Shown here one piece after another: positions 7,357-11,295 of a stretch of DNA of 64,000 nucleotides (the first letter of the stretch is position 1; each line of letters begins with the position of its first letter). This stretch comes from an uncultured Chlorobiaceae bacterium (GTDB lineage Bacteria > Bacteroidota > Chlorobiia > Chlorobiales > Chlorobiaceae), in the NCBI GenBank assembly GCA_903882665.1, contig CAIRXW010000047.1, positions 1-64,000 on the forward strand. Reading direction: 5' to 3'. The position numbers and the translations under genes are program-made. Under the pieces are notes generated by a model. That model searched no databases. It saw nothing but the letters and a program-made list of their open reading frames with translations, and was not told the DNA's origin.

Positions 7357-8166
7357 ATGAAAAGCAAAAAAGAGGCGATTGGCCTTGAGGGCTCCATCTG
7401 GTTTCAAAAAGCGGAAAACAGGTTTCTTGGCGCTGACCGTATTGCCTTGCTCGAAAAAATCGATGAGCTCGGCTCCATCAGCAGTGCAGCCAAAGCTGAA
7501 GGTATCAGCTATAAAACAGCATGGCATCTGGTCAACATGATGAACAACCTCTCCGAAAAACCTCTGGTAGAGCGCATGACAGGAGGAAAAGGGGGCGGTG
7601 GCACTCTCCTGACCAGAGAGGGAAAAAAAATTATTGAGCAGTTCCGGGTTGTTCAGGAGGAGCACCGGAAGTTTCTCCAGAATCTTGAGGGGCGTCTTGG
7701 GGATGCCCGTCACCTTTATCAATTTCTTAAAAGAATATCCATGAAAATCAGTGCACGTAACGTTTTTTCAGGTACGGTAGAAAAAGTGACCAGAGGAGCC
7801 GTCAACGCAGAGGTTATCCTTCTGCTCAAAGGCGAAACCCGCATTACCTCGATCATCACCATTGGGGCCGTTGATAACCTCGGCCTGAAAGAGGGGATGA
7901 ATGCCTATGCCATCATTAAATCAAGCTCCATCATTATCGCCCAGGAGTTGCACGATGCAAAACTGAGTGCACGCAACATCCTGCCGGGCAAGATCAGCAA
8001 GCTTATCGAGGGGCCGGTCAGCACGGAAGTTGATCTGGAAATTGGTGAAGGTAACGTTATTTCAGCCATCATCACTCACGGTAGTTCTGAAAAGCTGTCA
8101 CTGAAAGAGGGTGACACTGCCTGTGCGGTGTTTAAGGCATCAAGCGTTATCATCGGGGTAAGCTGA
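7357..8166 (+). CDS. modE: ModE-family molybdate-responsive transcriptional regulator
   Basis: The 269-residue protein has the E. coli ModE layout. An N-terminal winged helix-turn-helix (about residues 20-115, with SISSAAKAEGISYKTAW) is followed by two Mop domains, each opening with the molybdate-binding pattern SARN-x-x-x-G (residues 131-196 and 203-268). Family members bind molybdate or tungstate and control molybdate uptake and cofactor genes. A purine-rich ribosome site (GGAGGAGAGG) precedes the ATG. No modABC transporter lies beside it. The molybdenum cofactor genes of this window are 32 kb away and may be among its targets, which is inference. Confidence 0.93.
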   Translation: MKSKKEAIGLEGSIWFQKAENRFLGADRIALLEKIDELGSISSAAKAEGISYKTAWHLVNMMNNLSEKPLVERMTGGKGGGGTLLTREGKKIIEQFRVVQEEHRKFLQNLEGRLGDARHLYQFLKRISMKISARNVFSGTVEKVTRGAVNAEVILLLKGETRITSIITIGAVDNLGLKEGMNAYAIIKSSSIIIAQELHDAKLSARNILPGKISKLIEGPVSTEVDLEIGEGNVISAIITHGSSEKLSLKEGDTACAVFKASSVIIGVS

Positions 8167-8249
8167 ATTAAAAAAATCGACTTTTTTTTTGGAAAATTCC
8201 TGAAAAATGGTTAACAATCGTTAATAAATAAATTAACAAGTGGTGACCT

Positions 8250-8348
8250 ATGAAATCAATGACTTCGATAACCCTTATGATGTGCTGCTGCTGCTGTTGC
8301 CATAAGCTGCACTATTCTGGCAAAAGGATATCGGAAAAGAGATTGTAA
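8250..8348 (+). CDS. Polycysteine leader peptide (32 aa), candidate cysteine attenuator
   Basis: A 33-codon frame begins ATG at 8250. GGTGA lies 3 nt upstream; a second in-frame ATG at 8259 gives longer spacing. Codons 10-17 read Met-Met followed by six consecutive Cys codons (five TGC, one TGT; 8283-8300). The frame stops at 8348, 36 nt before a strong intrinsic terminator. The next genes are a DUF4395 protein, O-acetylhomoserine sulfhydrylase and, further on, cysK and cysE. A short frame with clustered codons for the pathway's end product, placed before a terminator and the biosynthetic genes, is the classic layout of ribosome-mediated attenuation. Polycysteine leaders with this job are known in mycobacteria. 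The function here is inferred. Confidence 0.72.
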   Translation: MKSMTSITLMMCCCCCCHKLHYSGKRISEKRL

Positions 8349-8391
8349 CTCACTCATGGTTTCATGAAGTACATATAGTCTTTCAAGCCGG
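8299..8391 (+). promoter_or_regulatory. Candidate antiterminator pairing in the polycysteine leader
   Basis: CTGGC (8317-8321) can pair with GCCGG (8387-8391) with one G-U pair, and AAAG (8323-8326) can pair with CTTT (8380-8383). This would tie up the left arm of the terminator at 8385-8413. GCCA at 8299-8302, overlapping the last Cys codon, can instead pair with TGGC at 8318-8321. A ribosome stalled on the Cys codons would leave 8317-8326 free to form the antiterminator. A ribosome reaching the stop codon at 8346 would cover or displace it. A further small hairpin sits between (TCATG 8354-8358 with CATGA 8363-8367). The pairings were found by eye and no energies were calculated. Confidence 0.45.
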
Positions 8392-8413
8392 TTCTGAATG
8401 TCAGAACCGGCTT
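8385..8413 (+). terminator. Intrinsic terminator between the polycysteine leader and the sulfur genes
   Basis: A perfect 13-bp stem (AAGCCGGTTCTGA at 8385-8397 and its complement at 8401-8413) with a 3-nt loop is followed by seven or more T residues. It lies 36 nt after the leader stop codon and 50 nt before the DUF4395 gene. It would therefore end transcription before the structural genes unless it is overridden. Confidence 0.88.
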
Positions 8414-8463
8414 TTTTTATTTTTACCCTATCATCAACTATAACAAAAAGATAACGCGCCATC

Positions 8464-8928
8464 ATGTCATCGACAGAAACATCTTCATCATCACCCACAT
8501 GCCTTGGCATACCCTTGCCGATTGTCTCACTGAACCGCGTGGTACTGCTCACGGGCATCACCGCAGCCATTGTGTTCCAGCAACCGCTGCTCACCACTGT
8601 GCTGTTTTTTATCATTCTTTCAGCGGTTGTCTTCGGGCCAAAAGGAAGTCTCATTTTCTTTGTCGGGTCACGCTTGTTTGCCCGCCAAAACCTGAATGCC
8701 AAAACTGAAGACCCGAAACTCATGCGGTTCAATAACTCCATTGCTGCCATTCTGCTTGGCGGCGCACAGATCGCGTTCCTGCTGGGAGCACCTCTGGCAG
8801 GCTGGATTTTTTCGGGCTTTGTGGCCATTGCCGCCGCAATAGCGCTTGCAGGGTTCTGCTTCGGCTGCTTCCTCTTTTACCAATTCAATTTGCAGCGGTT
8901 CAAGTTTTTCGGCCAGCAACAAAATTAA
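8464..8928 (+). CDS. DUF4395 family integral membrane protein
   Basis: The 154-residue protein carries the family's N-terminal CLGIPLP...LNR motif (residues 13-27). It has four hydrophobic stretches, two around residues 29-62 and two around 93-140, with a charged loop between the pairs. DUF4395 proteins are often encoded beside sulfurtransferase or thioredoxin-like genes, but their function is not established. Here the gene is the first one behind the polycysteine leader and its terminator and precedes O-acetylhomoserine sulfhydrylase. A role in sulfur-compound handling or transport is a reasonable inference only. The ribosome site is weak. Confidence 0.75.
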   Translation: MSSTETSSSSPTCLGIPLPIVSLNRVVLLTGITAAIVFQQPLLTTVLFFIILSAVVFGPKGSLIFFVGSRLFARQNLNAKTEDPKLMRFNNSIAAILLGGAQIAFLLGAPLAGWIFSGFVAIAAAIALAGFCFGCFLFYQFNLQRFKFFGQQQN

Positions 8929-9013: not shown

Positions 9014-10345
9014 ATGAGTTCAGAACACTACCGCTTTGAAACACTTGCCCTTCATGCAGGTCAGCCTGTCGATGCAACACAGTCGCGTGGAGTACCGGTC
9101 TACCGTACCAGCTCCTACCTCTTCAAGAGCACGGAACATGCCGCAAACCTTTTTGCCCTGAAGGAGCTTGGCAATATCTACACAAGGCTGATGAACCCGA
9201 CTACCGACGTTCTCGAACAGCGGATCACACAACTTGAGGGTGGAGCGGCATCCGTTGCCGTTGCATCAGGCACTGCGGCAATTTTCAATACCATCATCAC
9301 GCTGGCCGAAGCGGGAGATAACATCGTTGCGGCAAACAATCTCTATGGAGGCACCTACACCCAGTTCGATGCCATCCTCCCGAAACTCGGCATTACCGTT
9401 ACCTTCGTCGATCCGAAAGATCCAGCCAATTTTGAGCATGCGATCACCCCGAAAACAAGGGCGCTCTTCATTGAAACTATCGGCAACCCGGTGCTTGACT
9501 ATACCGATGTCAAGGCCATTGCAGAGGTAGCTCACCGCAACGGACTGCCGCTCATTGTCGATGCAACGTTCACCACTCCCTACCTGCTCAAAACCATTGA
9601 TCTCGGGGCAGATATCGTGATCAATTCGCTCACCAAGTGGCTTGGCGGTCATGGTGCGGGCATCGGCGGCATCATTACCGATGCGGGCCGTTTTAACTGG
9701 AAAGGCGGGCGCCATCCGCTCTTTACCGAACCCGACAGCAACTATCATGGACTGCGCTGGGCCATCGACCTCCCGGAACCCCTTGCACCAATCGCCTTCG
9801 CTCTTCGCGTACGCACCGTGCCGCTCAGAAACCTCGGAGCATGCATTTCGCCCGACAACTCGTGGATATTCATTCAGGGACTCGAAACTCTGCCTGTACG
9901 GATGGCCCGTCATTCGGAAAATGCCCTCATAATTGCCCAGCATCTTGCACAACATCCGGAAGTGACATGGGTGCGTTATCCCGGCCTGAAAAATGACCCA
10001 TCATATCCCGCTGCCTCAAGAGATTTGAAAAACGGATTTGGCGGTATGGTCGTTTTCGGCGTGAAAGGCGGCTATGATGCGGCCGTGAAAATCATCGACA
10101 CCATCAAGCTCTTCTCGCACCTTGCCAATGTCGGCGATGCGAAAAGCCTTATCCTCCATCCGGCAAGCACCTCGCACAGCCAGTTGACCGAAGAGCAGAA
10201 ACTCCAGAGCGGCCTCTCACCCGATCTGATCCGCCTCTCCATCGGCCTTGAACATCCCGATGACCTGATTGAGGCTCTCGATGAGGCGCTTCAGACGGAA
10301 GAGACGCACAAAACCGGCTGGCTTTCGAAGCTCATTAAGAAGTAA
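9014..10345 (+). CDS. O-acetylhomoserine sulfhydrylase (PLP-dependent)
   Basis: The 443-residue enzyme of the Cys/Met-metabolism PLP family would form homocysteine from O-acetylhomoserine and sulfide. The pyridoxal lysine is at about residue 208 in NSLTKWLGGHGAGIGG. The length and the long C-terminal part with SLILHPASTSHSQL match O-acetylhomoserine (thiol)-lyases rather than the shorter cystathionine enzymes. The frame is open further upstream to 8846, but the ATG at 9014 has GGAGAG 8 nt before it and gives the normal N-terminus, MSSEHYRFETLALHAGQ. It is the second gene behind the polycysteine leader. Confidence 0.9.
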   Translation: MSSEHYRFETLALHAGQPVDATQSRGVPVYRTSSYLFKSTEHAANLFALKELGNIYTRLMNPTTDVLEQRITQLEGGAASVAVASGTAAIFNTIITLAEAGDNIVAANNLYGGTYTQFDAILPKLGITVTFVDPKDPANFEHAITPKTRALFIETIGNPVLDYTDVKAIAEVAHRNGLPLIVDATFTTPYLLKTIDLGADIVINSLTKWLGGHGAGIGGIITDAGRFNWKGGRHPLFTEPDSNYHGLRWAIDLPEPLAPIAFALRVRTVPLRNLGACISPDNSWIFIQGLETLPVRMARHSENALIIAQHLAQHPEVTWVRYPGLKNDPSYPAASRDLKNGFGGMVVFGVKGGYDAAVKIIDTIKLFSHLANVGDAKSLILHPASTSHSQLTEEQKLQSGLSPDLIRLSIGLEHPDDLIEALDEALQTEETHKTGWLSKLIKK

Positions 10346-10374: not shown

Positions 10375-10641
10375 ATGGTGAACAAGCATCTCACAGTAAA
10401 GATTACAGAAGGCCTGAATTTCAGAGCTCTTGTAAAAATCCTGAGAATTTCCAGGGAACAGCAATGCTCCATGATTTTTCAGAAGAGCAACGGAGAAAAA
10501 GCCAATGCTAAATCTCTGCTTGAGATGCTCTCACTTTGCTCCATTGTCGGCACAACACTTCAGGTGACGATCGATGGCCATAACGCGCACAATACACTGA
10601 TGATGATTGAAGAAGTTTTTGAAAACGGAGCAGGTATTTAA
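10375..10641 (+). CDS. HPr-like protein lacking the phosphorylatable histidine
   Basis: The 88 residues align over their whole length with the PTS phosphocarrier HPr. There is a GL-x-x-R motif at 13-17, NAKSLLEML at 44-52 matching the Ser46 region, and a C-terminal EEVFENG. The catalytic His15 is Asn15, and the following Thr/Ala-Arg-Pro is Phe-Arg-Ala. Arg17 and the Ser46-equivalent (Ser47) remain. It cannot act as a normal PEP-dependent phosphocarrier; a regulatory or scaffold role is conceivable. Its stop codon directly abuts the ATG of the response regulator, which suggests co-translation. No PTS EI or EII gene is nearby. Confidence 0.7.
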   Translation: MVNKHLTVKITEGLNFRALVKILRISREQQCSMIFQKSNGEKANAKSLLEMLSLCSIVGTTLQVTIDGHNAHNTLMMIEEVFENGAGI

Positions 10642-11295
10642 ATGACCGATAGCAAACGAAATATCTCTGTTGTACTTGCTGATACACAGTTTTTGACCAA
10701 CGAGGCGCTGCATGCAATGTTGACACCGCTCTGCCGGTCGTTCTCTATGGTATCGACCAAGGCTGGCTTGCAGCAGCATCTGCAGAAAGAGGGTATTTCA
10801 CTCATCATCACCGATCATACCCTGTTCGATTTCGATTCAATCAGTGAACTCGGTGATTTGAGAAAAAATCATCCCGAGACAGGGATCGTGGTCTTGACAA
10901 ATTCAATAACGCACTTAAAAATAAAGGAGTTAAATGATATCGGCATCAAAAATATTGTTCTGAAAACCGATGACCGCGAAGATATTTTTCAGGCCATTGA
11001 GGCTGCGTTGAAAGGGAAAAAATATTATTCAGGCGATGTGCTTGATATTCTCCTGAAAAAGGAAGGGCCTCTTGAAGATGCGACTATCCTGACCACTTCA
11101 GAAATCGATATAGTCCGTCTGATTTCCAGTGGCCTTTCAACAAAAGAAATTGCGGTAAAAAAGCATATCAGTTTTCACACCGTCATGACACACCGGAAAA
11201 ATATTTTCCGTAAACTTGGAGTTTCGAGCAGCCCTGAACTGGTCATGTATGCTATAAAAGCCGGATTGATCGACAATATCGAATACCATATCTGA
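10642..11295 (+). CDS. NarL/LuxR-family response regulator
   Basis: The 217-residue protein has an N-terminal receiver domain with Asp14, probable phospho-acceptor Asp58 (in LIITDHTLFD), Thr86 and Lys108. A LuxR-type helix-turn-helix follows at about 149-210 (TTSEIDIVRLISSGLSTKEI). The receiver residues look intact, but no histidine kinase is adjacent. It starts immediately after the HPr-like gene and lies between O-acetylhomoserine sulfhydrylase and cysK. Control of sulfur or amino-acid genes is possible but not shown by the sequence. Confidence 0.85.
   Translation: MTDSKRNISVVLADTQFLTNEALHAMLTPLCRSFSMVSTKAGLQQHLQKEGISLIITDHTLFDFDSISELGDLRKNHPETGIVVLTNSITHLKIKELNDIGIKNIVLKTDDREDIFQAIEAALKGKKYYSGDVLDILLKKEGPLEDATILTTSEIDIVRLISSGLSTKEIAVKKHISFHTVMTHRKNIFRKLGVSSSPELVMYAIKAGLIDNIEYHI

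Follow-up and report, generated by a model that had tools for sequence, protein, structure and literature searches.

A probable cysteine-responsive transcription attenuator with a polycysteine leader ahead of DUF4395-metY in the Chlorobiaceae

Introduction

In the trp, his and leu leader attenuators, three pairings of the leader RNA (1:2, 2:3 and 3:4) compete with one another, and the leader peptide carries a run of regulatory codons. Comparable runs of Cys codons have been described in short ORFs ahead of cys operons in Mycobacterium and Propionibacterium acnes and ahead of cbs in Bifidobacterium (PMC1262725, 2005). The polycysteine ORFs of mycobacteria are cysteine-responsive attenuators (Canestrari et al., 2020, doi 10.1111/mmi.14498, as cited in PMC9031893 and PMC13236596); according to the two citing papers, these ORFs are leaderless, the speed of the ribosome on them depends on cysteine, and the control is described as translational. 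In the Rhodobacterales, the uORFC-8-2 motif ahead of cysS is a predicted ribosome-mediated transcription attenuator (PMC8632094, 2021). For green sulfur bacteria, a search of the open-licence literature yielded no paper on attenuation by leader peptides.

Here we analyze a window of 64,000 nt from an uncultured Chlorobiaceae bacterium (contig CAIRXW010000047.1, positions 1 to 64,000 of the forward strand), for which an earlier reading of the sequence, the original prediction, had proposed a cysteine-sensing attenuator ahead of sulfur genes. The conserved Cys run, the terminator and the folding switch described below support this proposal, and we consider it highly likely that the element is a ribosome-mediated transcription attenuator of the trp/his type, located ahead of DUF4395-metY and responding to cysteine via Cys-tRNA. 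It shares the three-pairing logic of the trp, his and leu attenuators and differs from them in amino acid, phylum and sequence. As in the mycobacterial ORFs described in the citing papers, contiguous Cys codons lie in a short ORF before cysteine genes and several operons per genome are concerned, whereas the conserved intrinsic terminator and antiterminator found here point to control of transcription. The original prediction had drawn the same parallel, in agreement with Canestrari et al. (2020) as cited in PMC9031893, and its remark that no such attenuator was known from green sulfur bacteria fits the literature searched. The leaders of PMC1262725 likewise have Cys-codon runs in short ORFs before cysteine genes, but they are without a terminator hairpin and have their Cys codons near the stop, while here the run lies in the middle of the ORF and an intrinsic terminator follows. 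The uORFC-8-2 motif combines tandem Cys codons (its positions 14-15) with an intrinsic terminator (PMC8632094); it differs in belonging to the Alphaproteobacteria, in having two Cys codons and in preceding an aminoacyl-tRNA synthetase gene, compared with three to seven Cys codons and sulfur assimilation or uptake operons here. The present leader precedes DUF4395-metY rather than cysS. The principle is thus known from other amino acids and bacteria; the phylum and the target genes are new.

A Cys-Run Leader and a Terminator Precede DUF4395-metY

The leader ORF (8250-8348, + strand; ATG at 8250, TAA at 8346-8348) has 32 codons and the peptide sequence MKSMTSITLMMCCCCCCHKLHYSGKRISEKRL, and its six consecutive Cys codons (TGC TGC TGC TGC TGT TGC, 8283-8300) are the proposed site of ribosome stalling. 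Thirty-six nucleotides separate the stop codon from the stem of an intrinsic terminator on the same strand (8385-8418), a perfect 13-bp hairpin with left arm 8385-8397 (segment 3), the 3-nt loop ATG at 8398-8400 and right arm 8401-8413 (segment 4), followed by T's up to 8418. The position of this terminator between the leader and the first gene is that of an attenuator. The features named in the original prediction can be read directly from the sequence. Downstream on the same strand follow DUF4395 (8464-8928; PF14340, E=6e-23), the O-acetylhomoserine sulfhydrylase gene metY (9014-10345; TIGR01326, above cut-off), an HPr-like phosphocarrier and a LuxR-type response regulator (10375-11295), and then cysK (11402), a cysE-like acetyltransferase (12414) and a cystathionine gamma-synthase-like gene (13322). 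No strong terminator-like site was found on the + strand of the metY-cysK interval, so co-transcription beyond metY is possible.

The Cys run itself had been judged unlikely to occur by chance. A whole-genome search found at least five tandem TGY codons at only four places in the 2.8-Mb genome, the other three lying inside protein genes in a different frame or on the other strand; this rarity, together with the retention of the run in frame across 44 distinct related leaders, argues against a chance origin. The Met-Met of the ORF is not conserved among relatives. Counting against an attenuator, no clear Shine-Dalgarno sequence was seen ahead of the leader ATG. The Rfam families gave no match above gathering score over 8000-8600. 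Upstream, a modE-type molybdenum regulator (7357-8166) ends 83 nt 5' of the ATG. The segment 14-7123 of the window holds a repeat-rich ORF of 2369 codons that probably encodes a large protein, either secreted or at the cell surface.

Conservation in the Chlorobiaceae

DUF4395 was found in 77 of the 86 genomes of the family, and the regions upstream of it were oriented and scanned for Cys ORFs. At 45 loci this revealed an ORF in which three or more Cys codons follow one another, giving 44 distinct aligned leaders, and metY follows DUF4395 in all 38 of the named related loci. C. ferrooxidans (L014, L111) is among the carriers of the leader. Frame, start and stop positions are kept: the Cys run varies from three to seven codons, always by whole codons, with the ATG 10-14 codons 5' of it, the stop 10-19 codons (mostly 14-15) 3' of it, and the T-run 108-132 nt from its start. 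As in known attenuators, there is thus a short ORF, conserved in frame, in which codons for the pathway product are clustered. Both Cys codons are used (TGC/TGT 123/72). In the remaining codons, the second position varies as much as the third (1.40/1.42 and 1.22/1.22 bits), so only Cys appears to be selected and not the peptide as such; the remainder of the leader peptide appears to be free of amino-acid constraint.

This pattern bears on two other explanations of the ORF. The ORF could encode a small Cys-rich protein that is functional and has a terminator to itself, with separate transcription of the operon downstream, and its conservation through most of a genus would be in keeping with that; the lack of amino-acid constraint outside Cys, the failure to find a sigma-70-like site between 8413 and 8464, and the placement of leader and terminator directly before either DUF4395-metY or a sulfate transporter make such a protein extremely unlikely. 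Alternatively, a chance ORF might sit next to the terminator of modE, whose end is just 83 nt away in this window. In some relatives modE is inverted with respect to the leader (L118, L134) or was not found beside it, yet leader and terminator remain, and with the conservation and spacing of the leader also contradicting it, the probability of this explanation is close to nil.

Alignment with other Chlorobiaceae, proposed originally as a check, showed that the Cys run is conserved together with the terminator. Of 79 DUF4395 loci, 58 have a terminator and a Cys-cluster leader, 15 have neither, five have the terminator only and one the leader only (Fisher p = 4e-11 for co-occurrence, a value that overstates the evidence given that the sequences are related). 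Among close relatives, a terminator without any leader, a case of the kind that the original prediction had named as speaking against it, was seen at two of the terminator-only loci, L004 and L074; both lie near contig ends, are unlike the others in upstream sequence and look rearranged. More distant loci have at least two clustered Cys codons with a terminator, or scattered ones such as CGRCSCC, CCHCC and CRRCIC. Two to three clustered Cys codons with the terminator kept, possibly an intermediate stage, are present at L054, L064, L069 and L071. The attenuator has been gained or lost within the family. Outside the family, no polycysteine leader precedes DUF4395 among the 23 loci scanned (L176-L198).

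Competing Pairings and the Position of the Ribosome

The leader-plus-terminator RNA (8250-8418) folds more stably than dinucleotide shuffles (z = -4.8). Its minimum free energy fold consists of a 1:2 helix, in which segment 1 (the anti-antiterminator, 8264-8276, + strand) pairs with 8324-8335, an inner stem-loop (8338-8383, + strand) and the terminator 3:4. The inner stem-loop holds the leader stop codon and links segments 2 and 3 (fold of L003). Segment 2 (AGGATATCGG, 8325-8334, + strand) is the antiterminator strand; in folds of the stalled state it pairs with the left arm of the terminator. Over the 44 sequences, 97.7% of cells of the terminator are paired, five pairs have two-sided changes, and cells with such changes number 17 compared to 2.9 in shuffles. 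For the antiterminator, 87% of cells are paired versus 18-55% when it is slid, and covariation is modest, with one pair showing two-sided changes (U-G, U-A, C-G). Support from these counts is strong for the terminator and moderate for the antiterminator.

A point against the switch is that RNAalifold, given all 44 aligned sequences, recovered essentially the terminator alone; since indels misalign the inner stem, per-sequence ensembles were folded instead, and for the stalled state only the RNA downstream of the ribosome, up to the terminator loop, was included. When the first or the last Cys codon occupies the ribosomal A site, the mean probability of the 2:3 antiterminator over the 44 leaders is 0.84-0.91, versus 0.19 without a ribosome; a comparison of folds in which a ribosome occupies the Cys codons with ribosome-free folds therefore gave the switch that had been expected. 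As the ribosome moves on, the 2:3 probability remains above 0.8 up to eight codons beyond the first Cys and falls to 0.05 or less from 12 codons on, and its value of zero with the ribosome at the stop codon arises partly by construction, the ribosome covering segment 2. Shuffling of the spacer lowers the stalled value to 0.20 +/- 0.04, and shuffling of the 5' part of the leader, which contains segment 1, raises the ribosome-free value from 0.19 to 0.45-0.52. Own 1:2 partners bind better than those of foreign species (p = 0.003); the same comparison of 2:3 duplexes gave p = 0.064, a test of low power as the left arms are nearly identical. In silico, an antiterminator that excludes the terminator is thus favored by a stall on the Cys codons, and a 1:2 helix prevents it when there is no translation; the two pairings of the left arm are mutually exclusive.

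The three competing segments of the original prediction hold in their logic and not in their positions. CTGGC is present at 8317-8321 and can pair with GCCGG at 8387-8391, but it is found in only seven of the 44 leaders, most having CTGAC, and was rejected as the conserved antiterminator. GCCA over the last Cys codon was replaced as a conserved segment by segment 1 at 8264-8276, and 8325-8334 is the conserved antiterminator strand.

We suggest that transcription would begin in the region of a palindrome at 8211-8224 (see below), and that a ribosome would translate the leader while RNA polymerase transcribes the leader region. If Cys-tRNA is ample, the ribosome would pass the Cys run, reach the stop at 8346 and cover segment 2, leaving the left arm to pair with the right arm, and transcription would end near 8418. 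If Cys-tRNA is scarce, the ribosome would stall at 8283-8300 and keep segment 1 unpaired; segment 2 could then pair with 8388-8395 of the left arm, the terminator would be blocked, and DUF4395-metY would be transcribed. In the absence of translation, segments 1 and 2 would pair and the terminator would form. Thermodynamically, the antiterminator helix is weaker than the terminator, which counts against the model and requires that the switch operate kinetically. A different possibility is that the leader senses cysteine and acts on the translation of DUF4395, or through Rho and polarity, the hairpin being incidental or accessory; the mycobacterial polycysteine ORFs studied experimentally are described in PMC9031893 and PMC13236596 as regulating translation of the genes downstream. 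At the present locus this is unlikely, as a strong conserved terminator with T-run accompanies almost every leader and is absent without one, and segment 2 pairs with a terminator arm, both of which argue for attenuation of transcription.

A Second Leader Ahead of Sulfate Transport Genes

A terminator-arm pattern search of the genome listed many sites, at least two of which were recognized as leader-terminator units. The second unit is a Cys-cluster leader with terminator upstream of a sulfate ABC transporter operon (G000:C36:1884-2090; L223, L148), where the leader starts at 1884 and encodes MHTLTVNNPASSGTSCCRICNLADMRMGECSR, the palindrome is a one-base variant, and the gene downstream encodes a sulfate ABC transporter substrate-binding protein (NCBIfam match). 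A Cys-containing leader with a GCCGGTTCC-type terminator was found at 28 sulfate-binding-protein loci (own genome and 27 relatives), with the Cys codons clustered in all except L171. Both the presence of a second Cys leader and terminator before the sulfate-transport operon of one genome and that of a rare palindrome before these and other sulfur operons are new.

This second unit has the same layout as the first. Against an attenuator of this kind, the sulfate-transport leaders show little or no switch on folding: the stalled probability is 0.74 overall compared to 0.63 with a shuffled spacer, the antiterminator appears in both states in a subset, and in the own genome's copy it does not appear (stalled probability 0.24). 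Apart from the Cys cluster, the peptides of the DUF4395 and sulfate-transport leaders are unlike, which argues for the Cys codons as the signal. It also bears on the idea that the nascent Cys-rich chain itself stalls the ribosome by way of a metal, sulfide or oxidants and not through a lack of Cys-tRNA. CxxC-like spacing in some divergent leaders would suit such a sensor; the contiguous three to seven Cys without conserved flanking residues are better explained by sensing of codons, and with a different peptide bearing the same cluster before sulfate transport genes we regard a nascent-chain sensor as very unlikely. A wider use of attenuation in this genome is not supported: no Trp-Trp leader for trpE was found in the genome, and its own cysS has no Cys leader.

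A Shared Palindrome and Layered Sulfur Control

The palindrome TTAACAATCGTTAA (8211-8224, + strand), a candidate operator or promoter element, precedes the Cys run by 64-83 nt in almost every leader. Sites of TTAACRATYGTTAA are rare, with 0-5 per genome in the genus and none in eight genomes of sister families. Other sites stand before sulfite reductase-cysH-cysD-cysN, where there is no leader, and before a sulfate-binding protein and a metB-like gene; at the latter a SAM riboswitch (RF00162) lies directly 3' of the palindrome (L104, 1535-1660; L105, 1348-1483). TTAACRATYGTTAA is a candidate operator of a sulfur regulator.

Green sulfur bacteria very probably use the Cys-codon leader and terminator to switch on sulfur-assimilation genes when charged Cys-tRNA is low, which would extend cysteine-sensing attenuation to organisms that live on sulfide. 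Beyond this, we lean towards a layered sulfur control in the Chlorobiaceae, with a sulfur regulator at TTAACRATYGTTAA, transcription attenuators that sense Cys-tRNA at the operons for sulfate uptake and DUF4395-metY, and SAM riboswitches ahead of the metB-like gene, all 3' of one palindrome that stays while the attenuator is gained or lost in the family. If true, the phylum would have a ribosome-directed cysteine regulon, of which the literature searched gives no description there. The uncharacterized DUF4395 protein would be tied to the need for cysteine, as its operon shares its control layout with sulfate uptake. The loci also provide a natural series, from runs of three to seven Cys through scattered Cys to the palindrome only, for testing the origin and decay of an attenuator.

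Besides 8211-8224, the palindrome is present at L088, L099, L101 and L104-L106. At L048, L059-L062, L067, L068 and L070, mostly from the second genus of the family, it lies about 90 nt 5' of DUF4395 with neither leader nor terminator. At L097 and L103 it precedes a MOSC-like gene, which in L103 is divergent from DUF4395.
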